Assembly: GCA_022820835.1 (NCBI GenBank)
Contig: JAJEET010000053.1
Location: 1-64,000 of the forward strand
DNA length: 64,000 nucleotides
Direction of reading: 5' to 3'
DNA from: Candidatus Poribacteria bacterium
GTDB taxonomy: Bacteria > Poribacteria > WGA-4E > WGA-3G
In this document: piece by piece, positions 37,254-47,423 of the stretch
Position numbering within the stretch: position 1 is the first letter of the stretch
Layout: every line of letters starts with the position of its first letter
The notes under the pieces: generated by a model
The model's input: only the letters and a program-made list of their open reading frames with translations
Told to the model about the DNA's origin: nothing
The model's database searches: none
Program-made: the position numbers and the translations under genes

Positions 37254-38462
37254 TCAGAAAAAGGAACGACTTGTCGTTATCTCTTGAATTTCAGCCCCCC
37301 CGTGTGCACTACGTCGCGGACGGACACGGATTGTGTTAACAGACTCGGTCTCGTCATCAACCAGAAGTGCCTCGCCACGGCGGTTAAGTTGCCGAATATA
37401 CCCTTTCAAATCACCTTCCATGTACGTCGCGCTCAATCGATCAAGGGCGTTGATGTCGTCCCACGTCGTAATTTTATGTGCCATAATCAAGTCGCACTGC
37501 GAAAGCAATTCGGAATCAATTGCCGAAGGTTGTTGCGTAGCGACGATAAGACTCAGTCCGGGCTGCCGCCCCTCTTTCACCCAACGAATTAACATATCTT
37601 TACACAAGGATGCTCTTCCCTGCGGTACAAACTGATGTGCTTCATCAATTGCCATCCAAACTCGAGGCAGACTTGTTTCCATTCCAAATTCTTCGCGACG
37701 GCGCATCCGCGTCCGTTCTGTAAACAATCGTCGCGCAACAATATCCAACACTAAATTCCGCAATCCTTTAGTGCCTGCATCAATTACACTTAAATCCAAA
37801 ACGTTAATGTGTTCCAAGGAAAAGACATCGGTCAATCGGGTCGGTTCTTCAGAGAAAAATCCCCATCTCTGAGCGGCTGTCAAGCGATTTTCGAGTGCTT
37901 CCACTGTGGTGCCTTTAGCCCGCGTGTCTTTACGGAGACTTGCGAGGATATCTGAAATATTGAAACTGTCATGGTTTTCGTGGAGGGTATCCACTGCCCG
38001 CCACATCGCTATCCCCATAGAATTATTGATTTCCAAATCAAACAATTCACACCAAGCATCTGGTGACAGGTCATGCGCGTTAATCCATAACGATGTTACC
38101 TCAACGCCGTTCGTTTGCAGCCTATTAACTATTTGAGCGTCTCCGAAACAGGCAAGTGGATCACCTGGGACAATCAGACGTACCGGAAACCCTTCTGTTA
38201 GTAATCCTGCTTGTCGGACTTCATCCGATTGGCTTTCGTTGGCTGAAACCATTGTGTGATAGATGCCCATGGGATCAGCAATAATCAGAACCGCTTTTCC
38301 TCGTTCCTGTGAAAATAATTCTTCTGCAATCACGCCGAGTGTGTAACTTTTTCCGGAACCGCGTTTCCCACAAATAAAAATAGCGCGGGAACCAGTTGCT
38401 CGGATATAAGCAATTTCTTCACTTTGATAATCCGTTCCGACTCGTAAATTGACTTCAGCCAT
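37254..38462 (-). CDS. HerA-like P-loop ATPase of the TGT/PglZ cluster
   Basis: A 402-residue HerA/FtsK-superfamily ATPase (DUF87-like). Walker A is GKRGSGKS at 32-39, Walker B RVWMAIDEAHQFVP with D273-E274, and the sensor region LSLIVATQQPSAID is near 303-316. HerA-type hexamers translocate DNA or act as motors in antiphage systems. It lacks an attached nuclease domain. It follows the PglZ gene by 15 nt with a GAGGTG site and is the last gene of the cluster. It probably supplies DNA translocation for the system. That role is inference. Confidence 0.85.
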   Translation of the reverse strand: MAEVNLRVGTDYQSEEIAYIRATGSRAIFICGKRGSGKSYTLGVIAEELFSQERGKAVLIIADPMGIYHTMVSANESQSDEVRQAGLLTEGFPVRLIVPGDPLACFGDAQIVNRLQTNGVEVTSLWINAHDLSPDAWCELFDLEINNSMGIAMWRAVDTLHENHDSFNISDILASLRKDTRAKGTTVEALENRLTAAQRWGFFSEEPTRLTDVFSLEHINVLDLSVIDAGTKGLRNLVLDIVARRLFTERTRMRRREEFGMETSLPRVWMAIDEAHQFVPQGRASLCKDMLIRWVKEGRQPGLSLIVATQQPSAIDSELLSQCDLIMAHKITTWDDINALDRLSATYMEGDLKGYIRQLNRRGEALLVDDETESVNTIRVRPRRSAHGGAEIQEITTSRSFF

Positions 38463-38477
38463 TAAACACCTCTTATG

Positions 38478-39572
38478 TTATTCATAAATATCCCAAAATG
38501 GAACTAATGATTCTTGTGCTGAGATACCACCGTGAAAACCCCATTCTGTTACCTTACGGTTTTTTGTGATAACTTTGTCGCCAGTTAAAACAGTGTAGAT
38601 GCCTTCATCGGTCTTCAGCATAAGAACATTCTCGCCTCCTACAATAGTTCCTTCAGCGTACCGTGCACTGCCTTTTTCTTGCGCCAGAGGCACGATGTCT
38701 TGGTCGGCATACCAAAGAATACCATGATCGGCAGTAATAAAGAGACGATATGATTTTCCAATTTCCTGCAATACCTCAAGGAGCAACAAAATATCTTGTT
38801 TTAGATCTTCAAGAAGTAAGTTAACATTTGGACGCTCCCTGTTAAAATGGCAAACGCCATCAAGCCCAGCGCGGATAATCTGCACATAGGTGTGTGCAGA
38901 CCACTCCGATGTCTTTATTGTCTGTAAAACTTCATCAAAGGTTGTCATGCGATGTAGTTGGTTTGGTGGAAATTGAAAAAAAAGCGTGTTAGTCAATGCA
39001 TTCTTAGCGCGCTCCCAATATGAAAATCCCAACCGCCGGATATATCCCAGTTCAAAAAGTCTGTGTGTTAAGACCGGTGAACCGATAAGTCGTTGCATAG
39101 CACTGCTCGTAATGCTTAATCCATCTACAAGGCATGGCTCCAGTATTGCTTGCGGTAATTCCCAGTCTATAACATCATAAAAGGATAAACCATCGAAAAC
39201 CAGCAGAACGACTATCTGTGGTAATTCTTGACGAATTCGCTCTGTAATTTCTGCAGCGACATCGGATTGTTTGCACAGATTAGTCGTTTCAAAACGGTTT
39301 GGTAATGCTTCATTGACCTGTTCTATTGAAGGAAGTGCTGGAAACTCAATTGTCGGAAAACCGAAAACCTGCGTTAATTCTTCTCGGTTTGATGGCGATA
39401 AATTTACAAAAAGTGTTGAATCTGCATCAATTTCGCGAGGTGAGTCAATTCGGTCTCGCCACTCCTCCACGGTTGTTGGACACCAAACATCAGTAAGGCA
39501 AAGTTCCCACAAGGCGCGATAGTTTTGCGGGATTTCAGTTATGCGGGGGATTGTGCACAATTGCTGTGCCAT
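38478..39572 (-). CDS. pglZ-like: PglZ-domain protein (alkaline-phosphatase superfamily)
   Basis: A 364-residue protein, shorter than BREX PglZ (about 800). Metal-site Asp is D127 in VVLLVFDGLSFYD. A candidate nucleophile lies in LSITSSAMQR (152-161). D238 sits in RAGLDGVCH and TADHG at 280-284. The closing EWGFHGGISAQESLVPFW (344-360) is the hallmark end of PglZ domains. PglZ is the defining phosphatase-fold component of BREX and Pgl systems, of unsettled activity. Here it lies between a membrane-protein gene and a HerA-like ATPase gene, with no PglX methylase nearby. Confidence in the domain is high and in the exact family low. Confidence 0.85.
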   Translation of the reverse strand: MAQQLCTIPRITEIPQNYRALWELCLTDVWCPTTVEEWRDRIDSPREIDADSTLFVNLSPSNREELTQVFGFPTIEFPALPSIEQVNEALPNRFETTNLCKQSDVAAEITERIRQELPQIVVLLVFDGLSFYDVIDWELPQAILEPCLVDGLSITSSAMQRLIGSPVLTHRLFELGYIRRLGFSYWERAKNALTNTLFFQFPPNQLHRMTTFDEVLQTIKTSEWSAHTYVQIIRAGLDGVCHFNRERPNVNLLLEDLKQDILLLLEVLQEIGKSYRLFITADHGILWYADQDIVPLAQEKGSARYAEGTIVGGENVLMLKTDEGIYTVLTGDKVITKNRKVTEWGFHGGISAQESLVPFWDIYE

Positions 39573-39614
39573 TTCATTCTGTCCTTTGTGCTCGGGACCA
39601 GAGAATGTGCCTAC

Positions 39615-40049
39615 CTAACTATCTGTCTCTGGGGCTTTTGGGGGTTCGGGTTGTGGTTTATCCTGGCCGTTTTTAGCCCATTCCACCCATTCTGCATGTT
39701 TTTTCTGTGCTTCGGATAAACCTTCAGCTAAACCTTTTAAACGCGCTTTTTCGAGCCTCCGATACTCAAGTTTTTCAAACAGTATCTTCACTAACATGAT
39801 AACCTCCCAGGCAACTTCCCATATTTCCATGAGAATCACGGCGATAAATGTAAAAATGGGTAAGGCCGCGCTTGTATTTAATATGATCGTATTTAGGGTT
39901 TCTCCGTTAGGTCTGAGTATGAGAAATACATACAGTATCTCCAAGGCAATTACATGGATTAAAATGGCGAGCGACCATTCAGGCGTTACAATCTCTCGCC
40001 AATTTCTACCTGATTTTCCTTCAGTCATAGGATCCTGTTTTTTTCTCAT
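39615..40049 (-). CDS. Small membrane protein within the TGT/PglZ cluster
   Basis: A 144-residue protein with two hydrophobic helices (about 27-47 and 58-80) and a charged C-terminal helix with an EKLEYRRLEKARLKGLAEGL stretch that should form a coiled coil, then a Pro-rich tail. Similar small proteins occur as orphans in poribacteria. It sits between the small P-loop gene (213-nt gap) and pglZ (42-nt gap). It could be a membrane-effector or anchor of the system, or a passenger. Function unknown. Confidence 0.6.
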   Translation of the reverse strand: MRKKQDPMTEGKSGRNWREIVTPEWSLAILIHVIALEILYVFLILRPNGETLNTIILNTSAALPIFTFIAVILMEIWEVAWEVIMLVKILFEKLEYRRLEKARLKGLAEGLSEAQKKHAEWVEWAKNGQDKPQPEPPKAPETDS

Positions 40050-40262
40050 CTCTATAGAACCGATTTTTAATAATTTTAATCGCTTTTTCGGGATTTGTCA
40101 ATGTTATAAACGGGTTGGGTAAGGCTATTTAGTTTAAGAAATAGATTCACTTGTGTGTAGGTGCCGTAATAATAACGCAAGTTGCTATCTATGAGATTTT
40201 AATAATGGAGTCTGAGTTTTTCCACGGTAAACTGTTCGTGTACGGACGCATAGGTACACAGA

Positions 40263-40811
40263 CTAACAATCTATGCTACAACAAAGGTTTTTGACGTACC
40301 ACCACAAGCCTGAACGTTGCTGAGCATACTCATTAAAGTCCTCAAAATGAGATTCACTAAATTGTTGGCGTATGATATTTTCTATGTGGACGATGTCAAT
40401 GTCTGTCAATGTTAGCTCAATCTTCCGTATATCATCATCAATGGGTTGACGCGTGATTAAGATAACATTCTTTGGACCGGTATAATCCTTTTGTCCCCAT
40501 CGGATCCTACCATAAAGTCGGCGTGCTTCTTGACGGGTGTGGGGAGCGTTATCAATTGCTACAACCGAATCGCGTGAAACCTGTACATCATAGCGAGATG
40601 GATTCGGAAAATAGAGGAGGTCAGTGCGATGATGCAAACAGTGGAAAATAAAAGTTTTCCCAACACCGGGTTGTCCGTACAGGTTGATGTATGGTTCCCA
40701 TGTTTGAATAGCAAATAGAAGCATATTTCGCGCGGAAATTTGAGAAGGCATTAGCGTTTCCATCGTTTCCGCTAATTTTGAGAGTTGTTTATGATAGGTT
40801 AACCAATTCAT
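40263..40811 (-). CDS. Small P-loop protein, BrxF-like
   Basis: A 182-residue protein with a Walker A LYGQPGVGKTFIF (GQPGVGKT at 45-52), a Walker-B-like VVAIDNAPHT near 89-98 and little else, the layout of the small BrxF ATPase of type 3 BREX. The downstream segment NVILITRQPIDDD fits a sensor-1 strand. It lies only 11 nt after the 1320-residue ATPase gene, just as brxF and brxC are neighbours in BREX type 3. The family name is an inference from size, P-loop and position. Confidence 0.65.
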   Translation of the reverse strand: MNWLTYHKQLSKLAETMETLMPSQISARNMLLFAIQTWEPYINLYGQPGVGKTFIFHCLHHRTDLLYFPNPSRYDVQVSRDSVVAIDNAPHTRQEARRLYGRIRWGQKDYTGPKNVILITRQPIDDDIRKIELTLTDIDIVHIENIIRQQFSESHFEDFNEYAQQRSGLWWYVKNLCCSIDC

Positions 40812-40822
40812 TTAATAGGTTG

Positions 40823-43800
40823 TCAAACGTTTGACCGCAATTCATACAATTCCTCTAAGCATTCAACAATTGCGCGAGCTGAAGGGAAAGTGCCATCCTC
40901 TATCAGTGGGTTTACAGCATCATGTAACCTTTGTGCTGTCTGGCTTAGAGCACTTCTAAACCTTTGCATATCTTCGTTAATTTTCTCCCATCTCTTCAAA
41001 TATGCTCGACCATCTTCGCCTAGGGAAATCAATGTAGACACCCAATTTCCTAATTCAGTGTCCACTTGCTCAATAGTCAACTCCGAGCGGACTGCCAAGA
41101 ATTTCTTGTCACACGTCTGTAGATCCTGACGTAAAGCGACTGATTCATCTTTTAATTCACCAGGGACAGCAAGAATATCAATTGGTTGCCGCAAATCACG
41201 GTTGAGACTATCAATTTGCCGCCTCGCTTCGCCTATAACTTCCCTTAACAACTTTTCAACAACCTTTTGCCGAGTGTCACGGTAACATCCATCTTGATCA
41301 GCAGGATTCCAACTTACGCCAATATGTGGTTTCTCAAGGAGTTTCCGCAAAAGATTCTCAAGGTTATCTTGATATTTGATAAATTCATTTTCTTTACCTT
41401 TTTCATATGTGCCAAATTCGGAATTAATGCTATCAATCTTTAACTTGAAGTGTTCACTGTTACTTAAAATATCTTTAAGGTTTTGGCGTTTTTCAGAAAG
41501 GTGTTGTCTTATCTCGCCCACAACATCATTCAACCGATCAATTAGATTGCCGACTTCCATATCTTCGCGACTGTTTTCCATTGAGCGTTTATCGTTATGG
41601 CACTGTCGCGCTAGCTGTCTCCACGGATCGAAAAGTTGGAACAATTCTTCGGTATCATTCTGTCTCTTACTCAGATTTTTAATTTGCGTGTCAACTTTAA
41701 TTCGTTCCGATTTCAATCGATCAGCTGTCTCAATTGCTTTGAATAGTGTCTGATCTGATTCATAAGTTTCAACTTCACGATCAACCATATCTCGCACTTT
41801 CGACTGAATTTTCGTAATTTCATCAGAAAGGCTTACATAAGCACGTTTCACATGGTTTTGGATATCATCAAAAAGGATTTGGCTGAAATCTACCGGCGGA
41901 TAATCTGTTTGCTGTTCTAAAACCGTAGGAACCGGGAGACGAAGTCTCTCAAGTTCGGTAATCTGTTGTTCAAGACAATTCTGCTCGGTGATAATCATAT
42001 TGCGGCAATACTGCTCAAAGTTCCTCTCTGTCGAATTCAACTTTTGACGCAATTCCTCTTTTTGTACCTCATCATTTTCAATGCCCCCAGTCTGGATGAG
42101 ATTACGGACAGAGGTGAGAACCTCATATTGATAGTCAAACCCCTTAGATTCTGCTAATTTAATCACGTCCTCAATATTACTCAATTTTGCTTCCAATTCG
42201 GAAAAATTGATAGAAACATCGGCGATATAGAGATGCTCCATACCAATTTCGCTTTTGGTCTTGATTATACCGCGGGTATTGAGAATATCTACTAACTCAT
42301 TAATTTCGTCCTTGGCATAACCAAGCTTAGCAGCATACTCGTGGACGAAAGGAAGCGTTATTGCATTAACAACCTCCCCATCAACAATAATAGTTGTGGA
42401 ACTGGCCTCAAGTTGTTCTACGAGTCGCTTTTCAAATCGATGAAGCGTAAACAAAACATTTACTTGTTCTTGTTTGCTTGTAACTTCGACTTGCCTCCCA
42501 GTCCTGTCCTCAAATCTCAACAACTCGCGTCCAACAACGTTATTGAAATTCCGAAAAGCGGAGATGCTGCTCAATCCAAAATGTCCTGGAACATCGGAAT
42601 TAACCATTGCCATGGGCTCAATTCCGCGTCTAATTGCAAGCGTAGGAATATTGCTGAGTGCGAGCTTATATGCATCCAAGTATCTTTTCCATTGCGCTGC
42701 CGTGGCAACCGCAGAATAGTCAGGGAATTGCTTTGGTATTAAAATTCGTAAAACATTTTCAACGAAGTCTTTTCCGGCAGTCACCGATTGAAAATCCGTA
42801 AAAAGTTCAACTGGATCAAAGTGAGCCTCTGCCTTAATTTCAGGTGAAAAAAAATAATGGATCAGTTCATTACGAATCCGCTCTTTAAGAAACCCAACTT
42901 CGGCTTCCTGTTTTGCAGATTCCACCATAGAAACTATTGAATCATCATCAAAAAAATCCAAGATAGAAAGCAAAAGCAGTGGTGTTATGAATTCAGGAAG
43001 GAACAATTCTCCTAGTTTACCGATGTCTTCTGGTACTCGTTGAGCGTCAATGGGTTGCTGTACATTAAAACGAAAATCAAGACTCTTTGCTGTAATGCAA
43101 CAAGCGTTGTCTACATGGTTAGTGGTGTCCAAAGTAAATTGTGTCCGAAACTGGCTGTCGGATGTTGGGAAATTCGAGAGAATTTCTGTGGCAACATCAA
43201 TGGTTAATGTTCTATCAGGATAATCTGACAAAACTGTGCCCTTTGCATCCAATCTGCAATGAAATCCAAAATTTCCATTTGTTTCGGTAATAACCCATCC
43301 GAGACTAGCTCCTGTCTTTTTCGTTAAAATTTCAGAGAGGATATGCCTGCTAAAAGCACGCACGGCAGCGCGGTGGAACTCTTTATCTGCTGGACTAAAC
43401 GTCCCTCTTAGCATTTTAAGAATTTCATTAAGCTCATCTACACCCAACAAATCGTCCCGATATATTTTTAGAGCCGGTCCCGTGACTTTTATATTAACAT
43501 GATCCCCAAGGAGCTCTTGGATAACAACATCTTTAGCCTGCTCAGGAATACCGTACTTCTGGAAACACTCCGACGGGATCCCCTCTGGATGTACACAGAG
43601 TAACTTAACGATTTTATCACCATCAGTTGTATTACGAACAATCGGTAATCCTATTATCTGGTTATAGGCTGATGCTGTTTCACTTTCTTGTGATCCATAA
43701 CTGATATTTCCAGAAAGATAATCATCACAAAAATCAAAGATAGAATAGGGTCTACTACTTTCAATATAACGTTGTGCTGCACGATTAAATGTCCTCACAA

Positions 43801-44785
43801 CTGAACGGGGACCACTCATAAGTTCACGTGATCGCGGATGACGTAAAAATTGCCCGAGTGCCTCTAAAACATCCGTATCTATAGCATTACGTTCTGAAGG
43901 CGACAGTTGAAGTGTTCCGGACAATTTCTCCCACAAATACTTTGCAAAATCTGTTTGCCCGTAAAGCTGCTCTAAGTTAATCTGACTCCCCTCGGGCTTA
44001 TTAAACCGATCTAATATATGACTTGCTCTGAGCTCAATATCAGCAAATGTGCGATTGTAGGTGAAGGCAACACATCCAATTGGGAAGTTTTCTTCTTCGT
44101 AAAGTCCGAAGATAAAGTCTTTGAGATTCTGATAATTCTGTGATATGTCAGGATTCGTCTTAAAAAGTTCAAACTCATCGGGCAGCATTAAGAGACCGTT
44201 GTAACCCGATTTTAGAAGTATTTGCGTTGTAAAACGGAGGTAGTCCAAAAGTTGGTGTGGAGACATAACCTCTAAAAGTCGACCTGCTTTTCTCAAGTGA
44301 TTAATCGTGTTGCGAGCCTGATCATAAGATAAGCTATTCTCTTGGACTAACCTTTGTGCCAACGTCTCTTCATCAACTTCAACTATCTCGCGATGTTTTT
44401 GCTCTATATCAGGGATAAGTTCGGGTCGTGTATCTTGCAAACGGTAGCAGACCCAGGCATGCGTTGCCGTAAGCATATCAGCAAGACTCCCCCAGACAAA
44501 CGGGGGGACTGTGACAATTTGTTTCGCCTCCGCTGCTTCCCATAAAGAAATACCGGTAGAAGTTTTACCGTAACCTTTATCTGCATAAATCAAACCGGTT
44601 ACAGAACGTTTTTTCAGGAGATTGTTAATGATAGCGTCCCACCGGTTCCCTAAATTCCCAATAGATATATGAGTACTGACATGAAAACGAAATTTACGAT
44701 CCCACATATCTGGTGCAGCTACTAAATTATAAACCGAGGGCGTAGCCACAGTAGGTTCTTTTTTATGAATTTCGTGTAATGACAT
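40823..44785 (-). CDS. Large BrxC/PglY-like ATPase
   Basis: A 1320-residue protein. An N-terminal AAA-type ATPase part has Walker A ADKGYGKTS (68-76) and Walker B GLLMLPDEFE (D203-E204). Winged-helix-like and helical regions lie in the middle. A long coiled-coil-rich stretch follows (about 890-1260) with repeated Leu/Glu/Lys heptads. Size, N-terminal P-loop and helical tail match BrxC/PglY, the large ATPase of BREX and Pgl systems. Its start has a CGGAG site and follows the winged-helix gene by 17 nt. It is likely the scaffold or motor of the complex. DpdH-type ATPases are an alternative relative. Confidence 0.75.
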   Translation of the reverse strand: MSLHEIHKKEPTVATPSVYNLVAAPDMWDRKFRFHVSTHISIGNLGNRWDAIINNLLKKRSVTGLIYADKGYGKTSTGISLWEAAEAKQIVTVPPFVWGSLADMLTATHAWVCYRLQDTRPELIPDIEQKHREIVEVDEETLAQRLVQENSLSYDQARNTINHLRKAGRLLEVMSPHQLLDYLRFTTQILLKSGYNGLLMLPDEFELFKTNPDISQNYQNLKDFIFGLYEEENFPIGCVAFTYNRTFADIELRASHILDRFNKPEGSQINLEQLYGQTDFAKYLWEKLSGTLQLSPSERNAIDTDVLEALGQFLRHPRSRELMSGPRSVVRTFNRAAQRYIESSRPYSIFDFCDDYLSGNISYGSQESETASAYNQIIGLPIVRNTTDGDKIVKLLCVHPEGIPSECFQKYGIPEQAKDVVIQELLGDHVNIKVTGPALKIYRDDLLGVDELNEILKMLRGTFSPADKEFHRAAVRAFSRHILSEILTKKTGASLGWVITETNGNFGFHCRLDAKGTVLSDYPDRTLTIDVATEILSNFPTSDSQFRTQFTLDTTNHVDNACCITAKSLDFRFNVQQPIDAQRVPEDIGKLGELFLPEFITPLLLLSILDFFDDDSIVSMVESAKQEAEVGFLKERIRNELIHYFFSPEIKAEAHFDPVELFTDFQSVTAGKDFVENVLRILIPKQFPDYSAVATAAQWKRYLDAYKLALSNIPTLAIRRGIEPMAMVNSDVPGHFGLSSISAFRNFNNVVGRELLRFEDRTGRQVEVTSKQEQVNVLFTLHRFEKRLVEQLEASSTTIIVDGEVVNAITLPFVHEYAAKLGYAKDEINELVDILNTRGIIKTKSEIGMEHLYIADVSINFSELEAKLSNIEDVIKLAESKGFDYQYEVLTSVRNLIQTGGIENDEVQKEELRQKLNSTERNFEQYCRNMIITEQNCLEQQITELERLRLPVPTVLEQQTDYPPVDFSQILFDDIQNHVKRAYVSLSDEITKIQSKVRDMVDREVETYESDQTLFKAIETADRLKSERIKVDTQIKNLSKRQNDTEELFQLFDPWRQLARQCHNDKRSMENSREDMEVGNLIDRLNDVVGEIRQHLSEKRQNLKDILSNSEHFKLKIDSINSEFGTYEKGKENEFIKYQDNLENLLRKLLEKPHIGVSWNPADQDGCYRDTRQKVVEKLLREVIGEARRQIDSLNRDLRQPIDILAVPGELKDESVALRQDLQTCDKKFLAVRSELTIEQVDTELGNWVSTLISLGEDGRAYLKRWEKINEDMQRFRSALSQTAQRLHDAVNPLIEDGTFPSARAIVECLEELYELRSNV

Positions 44786-44802
44786 AAAAATAACTCCGTA
44801 AA

Positions 44803-45627
44803 CTAAAAATCGGAGATTTGTGGTTCATTATTAATAACAATATAAAGACCACCGGATCTGCGAACAGATAAGTAAGCAGAAAAGCGGCGAAGCGTTTCAT
44901 TGAACATGAAGTCAAACCGCGTCTCGTCAATTAAACAGAATCGGCAAACTTGTCGTCTCTGTTCCTCCCCGATCATCCATAAATCTCCGTAGATGCTTCC
45001 AGATTCTCTGGCTACCCAATCCAATCCCATTAAAAATAACGCTGTAGAGCAGTGAGAGCGCCGTTTAAAAGTGGCATTCCTGAAATTTCTGCCGTTTGCT
45101 GTTTCTCTGACCCCCTCAAACATTTGTGGAGAAAGTGGTAAAAGCCAATCGTAGGCATGATTCACAGATTTACCGTCAAACGCAGCATTTTCTGGATCTA
45201 TATCCAGATATGAGAGGTTATTATAGATATGACTGATAACGTCATCCCTTTCAGGTAAGGAATCAGAGTCCCAAAGATAATTACAAACCTCTCGGTAAGA
45301 CCAAGACTCTGTATTTTGAGTCCGCAAATGTTTTGTCCACAAACCATATTGCAACCCGTGTAGCACATCAATAGCCACATCTCGATTCCTTTCCCACAAG
45401 GCATAAAATTCTTTACCTTTGTGAGTTAATTCCGATGGATTGCGTCGGGCAATTCCCCATTTAATTAATAACAGAATGATTTCATAATCTTTATTAGCCA
45501 CCGTATAACCCTTATCACGAACTATTTGGACTAAATCTGAACGACTTTGGGGACCCGGATGATACTTCAAAACCCATAATGCACTATCTACATCAGAAAA
45601 TCCTTTGAGAATATGTATTCGGGACAT
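44803..45627 (-). CDS. Winged-helix-like protein of the TGT/PglZ cluster
   Basis: A 274-residue protein. The ATG at 45627 is chosen for its AAAGGA site; the frame stays open upstream into the TGT gene. The first 75 residues (VLKYHPGPQSRSDLVQIVRD, EIILLLIKWGIARRNPSELT, HKGKEFYALW) look like a winged-helix DNA-binding domain of the type common in DUF4007/DpdG-like partners. The rest is helical, with a CRFC pair near the C-terminus. It lies between the TGT fusion gene (16-nt gap) and the large ATPase gene. It probably binds DNA or recognises the mark. Not assigned to a named family. Confidence 0.65.
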   Translation of the reverse strand: MSRIHILKGFSDVDSALWVLKYHPGPQSRSDLVQIVRDKGYTVANKDYEIILLLIKWGIARRNPSELTHKGKEFYALWERNRDVAIDVLHGLQYGLWTKHLRTQNTESWSYREVCNYLWDSDSLPERDDVISHIYNNLSYLDIDPENAAFDGKSVNHAYDWLLPLSPQMFEGVRETANGRNFRNATFKRRSHCSTALFLMGLDWVARESGSIYGDLWMIGEEQRRQVCRFCLIDETRFDFMFNETLRRFSAYLSVRRSGGLYIVINNEPQISDF

Positions 45628-45643
45628 GTTGTTTCCTTTAACG

Positions 45644-47224
45644 TTATGTTGGTATTTGCACATCTTTAAGCATTCGGTAATAATGTCCGGAGTACTCTTC
45701 GAGGATCTTCCATTGTGGTTGGTAGTTGTAAGTCCCTAATTCTGCCATAACTATTAGGTTATGCATAATCCGAAACCACCGTCCACTTTCCTCTGCAAGC
45801 TTATCAAAGGACTCACAAAATGGACATCGATGTCCAATGTTCAATTTTAGTGGTTCAAACTCATCCTTATGAATACGAGAATATTTACGAGTTTTACAAT
45901 CAATCCGCCTACCATACATGAACGGAAAAAATATAGATCCATAACCACCTGTCCGCATCCAGCCATTGGAATCAAAAGTTTTCACACCCACTTGTGCCAA
46001 ACAGAAAACAGCAGGAGGCGTTGAAATTCCAAAACTATGAAGCCGACTCCCATTGAGTAGCGGGACTAAATCATCAAGCAAACGTAACACATCCACATTG
46101 ACCCGATTAATTGAATTCGTCGCACCCATGGTTGAAAAAGACCCGAAACCGATACGGTGTGAGTCCGCCATTAAAGCTTCATAGTTTTGCAGGCAATACC
46201 CCAGATGTGCGGGCTGTTTGGCATGGATTACTGGCATCACCTTTCCACGGAGATCAGACGGCATTTGGTAAGCAAAACTAACACTTCCATCAACTGTCTG
46301 TCGGATTTTAGTTTCAGCATCGGACATAGAATCCTTACTCAACGGTGGATTGTCTGGCAAAATGTAGATATCCGCCCAATCTTCTGTCTGGTAAACCTCG
46401 CGTAATTTCGAGTAGAGTTCGTTGTAAGTAATGTCCCCTTTTTGGACGAAAAAACCGCCGGAATCAAACATCACCTCTTCTGTTTCACCCCTCCGTTTAA
46501 GCTCACGGACAAACGCGAGTGTTGAAGGGCTGGCAATCACCGGTGAGATTAACAACCGTTGGAACGGATTCGGTTTACCTCGGGGCCAATCAAAATCGTG
46601 GGCATGCGTATGCCAGAGCTCGTAGATTTTTCGCATTTCTCCAGGGGCAATCGTTGCTGAAGCGAAAAAATGTGGGGAATTCTCTGGTGGACTGTGTAAA
46701 AATCCATCACCGTTCTCATGGAATTCAAACCGCCGGGGCAACGGCTTGAGGAAGTAGTGCCATACGTTTAACGGACGCTTTTTCCCGATTTCGGTATCTG
46801 TCCGTGTAAATTGCAGTTTCTCGTAAAACGCGTTCGCGGAGAGTGATTGGGGGCACTTGAGTCGAATATGTTCGCCTCCAGCTACGTTCACTAACCACGT
46901 TAACCTTTGTATAAGTCGCTTTCCGATTTTCTGCTTACGAAAGGGTTCGTCAATAACAATATCGTAAAGCGTGGCGTTGTTATCCTGACGGATACGAAAA
47001 TTAGCGAAACCGATGACCTGTTCATCCTGAACGGCGACGAGGAGCCACTTCTTTTTTTGCGCTTCGTGTAGTACCGATGTCCGAATAAAGCCTAATTCCA
47101 CCCGATGCCGGTCAGCGAGATCCTTTGCCCCGGTTACATCTGTTTCACGGGCATAACGGATCGTTACAGGTTGAATCTCGTTTGGCGTTACAGGTACAAA
47201 CTTAGTTCGGGATGAGCTCTTCAA
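45644..47224 (-). CDS. GNAT-TGT fusion: acetyltransferase domain plus DpdA/tRNA-guanine-transglycosylase-like enzyme
   Basis: A 526-residue fusion. Residues about 21-160 are a GNAT acyltransferase (GFANFRIRQ, DEPFRKQKIGKRL CoA loop at 93-104, NAFYEKLQF). Residues about 185-520 are a TGT-fold enzyme: D254 in MFDSGGF (general acid/base position), GFGS at 359-362, D418 in VKTFDSNGWMR (nucleophile position) and a zinc site C467-x-x-C470 with H488. TGT enzymes swap a guanine for a 7-deazaguanine in tRNA; DpdA does so in DNA. It is too diverged for the housekeeping queuine TGT and lies with BREX-type genes, which favours DNA. The start is TTG with a GAGGTG site, inside an upstream reading frame. 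Confidence 0.8.
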   Translation of the reverse strand: MKSSSRTKFVPVTPNEIQPVTIRYARETDVTGAKDLADRHRVELGFIRTSVLHEAQKKKWLLVAVQDEQVIGFANFRIRQDNNATLYDIVIDEPFRKQKIGKRLIQRLTWLVNVAGGEHIRLKCPQSLSANAFYEKLQFTRTDTEIGKKRPLNVWHYFLKPLPRRFEFHENGDGFLHSPPENSPHFFASATIAPGEMRKIYELWHTHAHDFDWPRGKPNPFQRLLISPVIASPSTLAFVRELKRRGETEEVMFDSGGFFVQKGDITYNELYSKLREVYQTEDWADIYILPDNPPLSKDSMSDAETKIRQTVDGSVSFAYQMPSDLRGKVMPVIHAKQPAHLGYCLQNYEALMADSHRIGFGSFSTMGATNSINRVNVDVLRLLDDLVPLLNGSRLHSFGISTPPAVFCLAQVGVKTFDSNGWMRTGGYGSIFFPFMYGRRIDCKTRKYSRIHKDEFEPLKLNIGHRCPFCESFDKLAEESGRWFRIMHNLIVMAELGTYNYQPQWKILEEYSGHYYRMLKDVQIPT

Positions 47225-47423
47225 ACTTCACCTCTTTCACTTCTCGTTCGGAGTTTGCCATAAAATCCCAGATTTCTTTGGCGGTTTCGGAGCCGCAGTT
47301 TTTCAAACATAAGAGTGCCGATATCTCACGGTACGCTACCAACTGTGTTTCCGATATACCAGCTTTGGCGAGAACATAACTGGCGCGCGTGCTGAGCCCA
47401 TTTCGTTTCCAATAAGCTGCAAG
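47202..47423 (-). pseudogene. 5'-truncated RpoA-CTD-like helix-hairpin-helix reading frame
   Basis: A 74-codon minus-strand frame, closed upstream by TAA and without a usable start. It reads AYWKRNGLSTRASYVLAKAG, then ISETQLVAYREISALLCLKN, CGSETAKEIWDFM and a charged tail. This is the RNA-polymerase alpha C-terminal/helix-hairpin-helix pattern (GLSTRA..., LKNCG...T). Its stop (47202-47204) lies inside the GNAT-TGT gene, and it contains that gene's ribosome-binding site. Either the 5' part has been deleted or the gene starts at a non-canonical codon. It hints that a DNA-binding HhH protein once belonged to the same operon. Confidence 0.55.

Follow-up and report, generated by a model that had tools for sequence, protein, structure and literature searches.

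A BREX-Related Capture cluster of Candidatus Poribacteria with a fused GNAT-TGT protein, a candidate enzyme of DNA self-marking

Introduction

BREX-Related Capture (BRC) was described by Rakesh & Krishnan (NAR, January 2026, PMC12839542) in 45 taxa, with PglZ, DUF6079 (BrxC), a STAND NTPase, DUF4007, HerA/FtsK, GNAT and TGT as its parts. In that description the HerA/FtsK translocase belongs to every BRC locus and GNAT and TGT to a subset, the GNAT being "occasionally fused with TGT"; the BRC PglZ lacks the usual BREX extensions, with an N-terminal inactive helicase part published for it, and a subset of BRC is proposed to mark host DNA, perhaps with preQ0 (PMC12839542). BRC has so far been predicted from gene neighbourhoods.

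Here we analyze a gene cluster encoded within a 64,000-nucleotide stretch of a Candidatus Poribacteria bacterium (positions 1 to 64,000 of contig JAJEET010000053.1, assembly GCA_022820835.1; hereafter, the window). By its gene content, this cluster is a new BRC member that adds an example with a fused GNAT-TGT protein, and it is real and recurs in other genomes. An earlier note on the same DNA, made from the sequence alone, knew of no described system with this composition, which is in fact already in print as BRC (PMC12839542). From homology and gene context we consider it rather probable that the GNAT-TGT protein of this BRC-kind cluster exchanges guanines of the cell's own DNA for a 7-deazaguanine that serves as a self-mark, with the BrxC-, PglZ- and HerA-type proteins attacking unmarked DNA.

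Results

Gene content and order of the cluster

All seven minus-strand open reading frames previously listed for the cluster are present at the following coordinates (aa, amino acids):

37254..38462, minus strand, HerA-type ATPase, 402 aa (Pfam DUF87 and PADLOC HerA)
38478..39572, minus strand, short PglZ-like protein, 364 aa
39615..40049, minus strand, small membrane protein, 144 aa, inside the cluster but not a stable part of it
40263..40811, minus strand, P-loop NTPase (STAND/BrxB-position), 182 aa, with a Walker A motif in its sequence
40823..44785, minus strand, BrxC-like ATPase, 1320 aa
44803..45663, minus strand, predicted winged-helix protein (BrxA- or DUF4007-position), 286 aa
45644..47224, minus strand, GNAT-TGT fusion protein, 526 aa, TTG start, GNAT at about residues 12-159 and TGT at residues 183-513

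The upper end of 47423 formerly given to the cluster is too high, because the frame contains a stop codon just two codons ahead of the TTG at 47224, and the six core genes occupy positions 37254-47224; the start of a relative (P0006) falls at the same place as this TTG. From the GNAT-TGT gene onward, a 20-nucleotide overlap is followed by gaps of 17, 11, 213, 42 and 15 nucleotides, so that one of the junctions is long.

Nine proteins of the window were scanned against the Pfam, PADLOC and NCBIfam models. The HerA/FtsK translocase is represented by the HerA-type ATPase (DUF87, 2.1e-12; PADLOC HerA, 1.6e-22; mad8, 2.2e-21; DndH, 5.7e-6), which is 47.5% identical to the HerA of a BRC locus found on a Haloplanus plasmid. 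GNAT and TGT are both provided by the fusion, with a firm Pfam match for the GNAT half (2.2e-11) and one below the cut-off for the TGT half (0.019). The BrxC-like ATPase is likewise below the cut-off of Pfam BrxC_BrxD (0.004), but its assignment is carried by its family: five of 11 members match this model at E up to 0.01 (best 2.3e-6; the DUF6079 model is not among the models listed), and the window protein has a Haloplanus homologue that carries the annotation BREX ATP-binding. The PglZ-like protein, at 364 aa, lacks the usual BREX extensions and matches BREX PglZ models weakly (PADLOC, 0.002; NCBIfam, 8e-4); Pfam PglZ was found in 6 of 25 relatives, and a PorX-like model matched as well. 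The P-loop protein gave weak AAA matches in Pfam and shares 34% identity with the same-position Haloplanus protein (3e-9). As the TGT and BrxC_BrxD matches were below their cut-offs, PglZ was weak and the winged-helix candidate was unmatched, the labels proposed from the sequence alone needed independent support. For the winged-helix label this support is partial: the protein is homologous to same-position proteins of Haloplanus (7e-16) and of an Oscillatoria plasmid (9e-16), yet none of the Pfam models matches it at E values up to 1. Searches of PDB sequences with the winged-helix, PglZ and BrxC profiles were uninformative. In sum, the HerA, BrxC-type and PglZ-like components of the proposed BREX-type core stand, while the small membrane protein does not, and no DNA methylase was matched among the nine proteins, in agreement with the earlier note.

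Recurrence in Poribacteria and cluster-free versions of the locus

Close relatives of the window genes sit in records named Candidatus Poribacteria, and their distribution was examined in 84 Poribacteria genomes, including that of the window. A BRC-type GNAT-TGT protein (73-100% identity) is encoded in eight of them. Six genomes (the window's, G054, G048, G066, G081 and G057) have all six core genes on a single contig and in an unchanged order, which confirms that the gene order recurs, and two more (G044 and G050) show a partial order on contigs that end inside the cluster. The G057 cluster has an interrupted BrxC frame and a P-loop gene that only tblastn detected, and G081 has extra open reading frames between the P-loop and PglZ genes. 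The PglZ-like protein was detected in 9/84 genomes, in one as a remnant; in G015 and G017 it is accompanied by HerA, and the contigs stop short of the place where GNAT-TGT would lie.

In five genomes the cluster is absent, and the small membrane gene, intact or truncated, lies between the same flanks (L114 in G070, L116 in G071, L118 in G062, L126 in G063 and L129 in G068); the locus of G070 keeps the start of PglZ. The small membrane protein, matched in 31 of the 84 genomes and truncated in G066 and G054, was rejected as a component, as it persists in these cluster-free versions. Nevertheless, this gene may once have travelled with the cluster, because it shows greater identity between genomes than the flanking sequences do.

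Conserved residues and identity of the GNAT-TGT protein

The TGT half was aligned with the TGTs of its family (170 rows), revealing the following conserved positions:

46463..46465, minus strand, codon of D254 in the D-S-G-G motif, D in 170/170 family TGTs
46352..46354, minus strand, codon of D291, D in 170/170 family TGTs
45971..45973, minus strand, codon of D418, D in 170/170 family TGTs, in one alignment column with the D of both 2ash and 7ui4
45761..45832, minus strand, zinc-site-like H465-x-C467-x-x-C470 ... H488, present in 165, 165, 165 and 164 of 170 rows, the rest being gaps

D254 and D418, singled out in the earlier note, are therefore invariant. We take D254, D291 and D418 to correspond to D102, the base-recognition D156 and the nucleophile D280 of TGT, respectively (Z. 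mobilis TGT numbering). In the zinc-site-like part, this family has a histidine in place of the first cysteine of the usual pattern.

A profile search against PDB sequences placed DpdA 7ui4, which exchanges guanine in DNA (E 3.4e-5, with 58 positions covered), almost level with 2ash, a tRNA TGT (E 6.4e-5). A housekeeping identity was rejected, given the sub-cut-off Pfam TGT match and the presence of a separate Tgt (549 bits) on contig C5 of the same genome, so the claim that the TGT half is not the housekeeping queuine TGT holds. Among NCBIfam models, those of the RimI type are the nearest to the GNAT half. The correlation of 0.945 between GNAT and TGT identities mostly reflects shared descent of the fused proteins and was not used as evidence.

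Relatives linked to Druantia genes

In four other Poribacteria genomes (G080, G064, G018 and G053), a GNAT-TGT protein of 32-37% identity comes first, then a protein of about 280-290 aa, next a BrxC-like ATPase, and after these the DruF-like, DruL-like and DruE proteins. DruE adjoins the trio in all four, scoring 1539 bits in the G080 set, which was scanned. The Oscillatoria plasmid, typed as conjugative, also carries these six genes, but in convergent orientation for the Druantia part, and five of the six, plus a 671-aa P-loop protein, are on an IMG/VR contig whose available stretch ends after DruL. The linkage of this trio to Druantia is an addition beyond the main text of PMC12839542, in which a word search for Poribacteria, Druantia, QueC and preQ0 gave no match.

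These loci (L039-L042 with L052-L055, L057 and L059) have the appearance of a Druantia variant with a base-exchange-type enzyme, and a search among open-licence PMC papers found no description of Druantia with GNAT-TGT. DruE was detected at E 1e-30 in 11/84 genomes, and no GNAT-TGT was seen in the seven that were annotated of the eight other Poribacteria DruE loci (G059 left out). Loci of this kind (L105-L111, in G052, G053, G070, G076, G031, G046 and G041, respectively) contain DruE, DruF-like and DruL-like genes and coiled-coil proteins, with a PD-(D/E)XK nuclease where scanned. Four proteins scanned from two of the seven annotated loci included one PD-(D/E)XK nuclease and no methylase, and the idea that GNAT-TGT replaces a methylase in Druantia gained no support.

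In a TGT tree of a thinned set (81 rows), one node unites the row of the Haloplanus BRC with that of the Oscillatoria Druantia locus and a single phage row. Because the support of this node (92/95) falls below the star of the tool, repeated swapping between effector sets is only suggested.

Relatives in phages and plasmids and their links to preQ0 synthesis

Two IMG/VR contigs encode the GNAT and the TGT as neighbouring separate genes, one of them with matches to DNA polymerase, helicase and clamp and the other with a match to tape-measure protein. Their GNATs score 158 bits with the GNAT profile of the fused family and share most of its near-invariant residues. A distant family TGT (29% identity) was found with FolE, QueC and QueE within 22 kb on a 143,886-base phage contig (G028:C1) with major head, portal, terminase and tail matches; comparison with Haloplanus QueD found no QueD on it. 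This contig, from a Poribacteria bin, also encodes a ribonucleotide reductase, a RecJ-like nuclease, DNA polymerase III alpha and a DNA methylase (loci L145, L146, L147, L067, L043, L068, L148 and L149).

The Haloplanus plasmid BRC locus, a single case, has a separate TGT and, in divergent orientation, queC, queE and a QueD-type gene. Its GNAT is generic, with 33.5 bits compared to 143-215 for the fused and phage GNATs in loci. The phage GNAT/TGT pairs, the phage TGT with preQ0 genes and the Haloplanus BRC with que genes are likewise additions to what the main text of PMC12839542 contains. Relatives of the BRC BrxC-like and GNAT-TGT proteins occur on only two of 72,556 plasmid records; scans of viral contigs found three contigs in all plus one weak match, one scan being empty; and searches of phage records found two equally long records that match the GNAT alone, distant TGTs of Sulfolobus viruses, and nothing else.

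Other TGT-linked genes in Poribacteria

A second TGT-linked cassette was observed in seven Poribacteria genomes. All seven encode a BrxD-like ATPase and a TGT about 400 aa long; a protein of about 310 aa is present in 6/7, as is a PIN-domain protein, which in two cases is split or fragmentary, and another of about 145 aa is present in 4/7. A literature search among open-licence PMC papers gave no match for this cassette, located at:

L045:9346-14195
L046:5615-10385
L047:9041-13938
L048:9323-14112
L049:9149-13575
L050:9166-12884
L051:2-1914 (partial)

A further long TGT-family protein, in frames of about 575-680 aa, is encoded in many Poribacteria genomes (e.g. G080:C1:4028882-4029754).

Discussion

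Gene content and order, homology, recurrence, the conservation of catalytic-type residues, and the occurrence of same-family enzymes near preQ0-synthesis genes and in phages were observed directly, and point to the following model. The GNAT-TGT protein would exchange guanine for a 7-deazaguanine in host DNA, thus producing a self-mark, at sites that the winged-helix protein and the BrxC-like ATPase would present to it while binding and scanning DNA. HerA would move invader DNA to PglZ for cutting, with the P-loop protein coupling ATP use to the complex. Marked host DNA would be spared and unmarked foreign DNA attacked by the nuclease machine.

A number of observations weigh against this self-marking model. 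In structure, the TGT half comes closest to archaeosine TGT, which acts on tRNA, and its best 50 structural matches include no DNA enzyme. The PADLOC and NCBIfam models of DpdA gave no match at E up to 1, so that by these curated models this half does not count as a DpdA, and no Pfam match to ParB or DUF328 was found in the nine window proteins that would indicate DpdB or DpdC, which help DpdA in Dpd (PMC12839542). Among the BRC loci seen in this analysis, que synthesis genes lie beside that of Haloplanus only; in the Poribacteria BRC stretches, none was detected by comparison with Haloplanus QueC, QueD and QueE, nor by Pfam in the nine proteins of the window. QueC, QueF and Tgt do exceed their cut-offs in 12/12 Poribacteria genomes with a BRC- or Druantia-type GNAT-TGT, but they are near-universal in the phylum and their presence does not discriminate (QueF alone exceeds its cut-off in 77/84 genomes and matched 0/4 archaeal control genomes). 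The distant phage TGT of G028 has a G-F-G-S-F motif that differs from that of the family, and the TGT of locus L061 lacks the zinc-site part.

The structural matches raise the alternative that GNAT-TGT acts on tRNA or another RNA, with the cluster defending the cell through altered translation during infection, as would also fit a GNAT half nearest to RimI-type models. We consider this unlikely, because the genome has its separate housekeeping Tgt, the match to archaeosine TGT stops at residue 352 of 577 with its C-terminal part missing, the partners (HerA, BrxC-like, PglZ-like) are of DNA type, and phage relatives occur with DNA-replication or preQ0 genes. Somewhat less probable still is an attack-side role, in which GNAT-TGT alters or removes guanine in invader DNA and PglZ cuts there. 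The chemistry of TGT runs through a base-free covalent intermediate, which would suit such a role, as would the lack of an obvious separate recognition nuclease in the cluster. However, phages carry the same GNAT and TGT pair, which fits better with a protective mark, and a 7-deazaguanine mark is reported to protect phage DNA (PMC6884629).

HerA-type ATPases also serve in DNA repair, and NCBIfam repair HerA models match that of the window, but a function in repair or chromosome maintenance instead of defence seems very improbable for a cluster whose GNAT-TGT is patchily present (8/84 genomes), whose locus exists in five cluster-free versions, which has a plasmid-borne copy, and whose related trio adjoins known Druantia genes. 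Slightly more remote is the proposal that the TGT half has lost its catalysis and serves as a sensor or for DNA binding: the histidine in place of the first zinc cysteine would be compatible with it, whereas three aspartates invariant in 170/170 rows would be unexpected in a dead enzyme.

Returning to the self-marking model, bacterial TGT has a Glu (presumably E235 of Z. mobilis TGT) near the preQ1 amine, and in the corresponding stretch the family TGTs conserve no acidic residue. For this reason the inserted base could be preQ0. The missing acidic residue would also suit a preQ1 made neutral by acylation, in which case the dedicated GNAT would be explained. A more novel but rather unlikely reading is that the joint product of GNAT and TGT is an acylated 7-deazaguanine in DNA, such as 7-acetamidomethyl-7-deazaguanine derived from preQ1 and acetyl-CoA. 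This portable self-mark would be recognized by two different effector sets, PglZ/HerA in BRC and DruE/DruF/DruL in loci of Druantia type, and phages would have copied it to escape. To our knowledge, acylated 7-deazaguanine is not a known DNA base; formyl-preQ1 occurs in phage DNA. The preQ1 amine as a universal GNAT acceptor is weakened by the generic Haloplanus GNAT and by the absence of QueF matches in the archaeal controls, and the Haloplanus BRC, without a dedicated GNAT subfamily, keeps the acetyl reading a minority hypothesis. Relatives of the same enzyme adjoin Druantia genes and occur in phages, which suggests that the mark is portable. If the mark is real, DNA marking would be a module separate from the nuclease side, swappable between defence types and copied by phages. 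The links to preQ0 synthesis, phages and Druantia make 7-deazaguanine DNA marking directly testable.

Comparison with known systems

BRIGADE, published as a hybrid of a 7-deazaguanine cluster and Druantia-related helicases of the YprA family, has been described from halophilic archaea only and usually has PLD nucleases (PMC12458937); the terms BrxC, GNAT and TGT do not appear in its main text. Druantia itself is connected to the window through other genomes, where DruE, DruF and DruL adjoin relatives of the GNAT-TGT, winged-helix-position and BrxC-like trio, while a search for DruE in the window's own genome, at E 1e-30, was negative. The Dpd system (DpdA-DpdK) has in common with the window a TGT-family base-exchange enzyme proposed to modify DNA, but the window has no curated DpdA match and its partners are of BREX type instead of Dpd type. 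BREX shares with it the BrxC-like ATPase, the PglZ-like protein and the BrxA- and BrxB-position proteins, whereas the PglX/BrxX methylase of BREX, replaced in type 4 by phosphorothioate genes, has no counterpart among the nine scanned proteins, in which no methylase was matched: HerA and GNAT-TGT stand in place of the PglX-type methylase, and the PglZ-like protein is short. Between BRC and the window there is no difference that excludes membership, as DNA self-marking is proposed for both and both combine PglZ, a BrxC-type ATPase, a small NTPase, a BrxA/DUF4007-position protein and HerA with GNAT and TGT.

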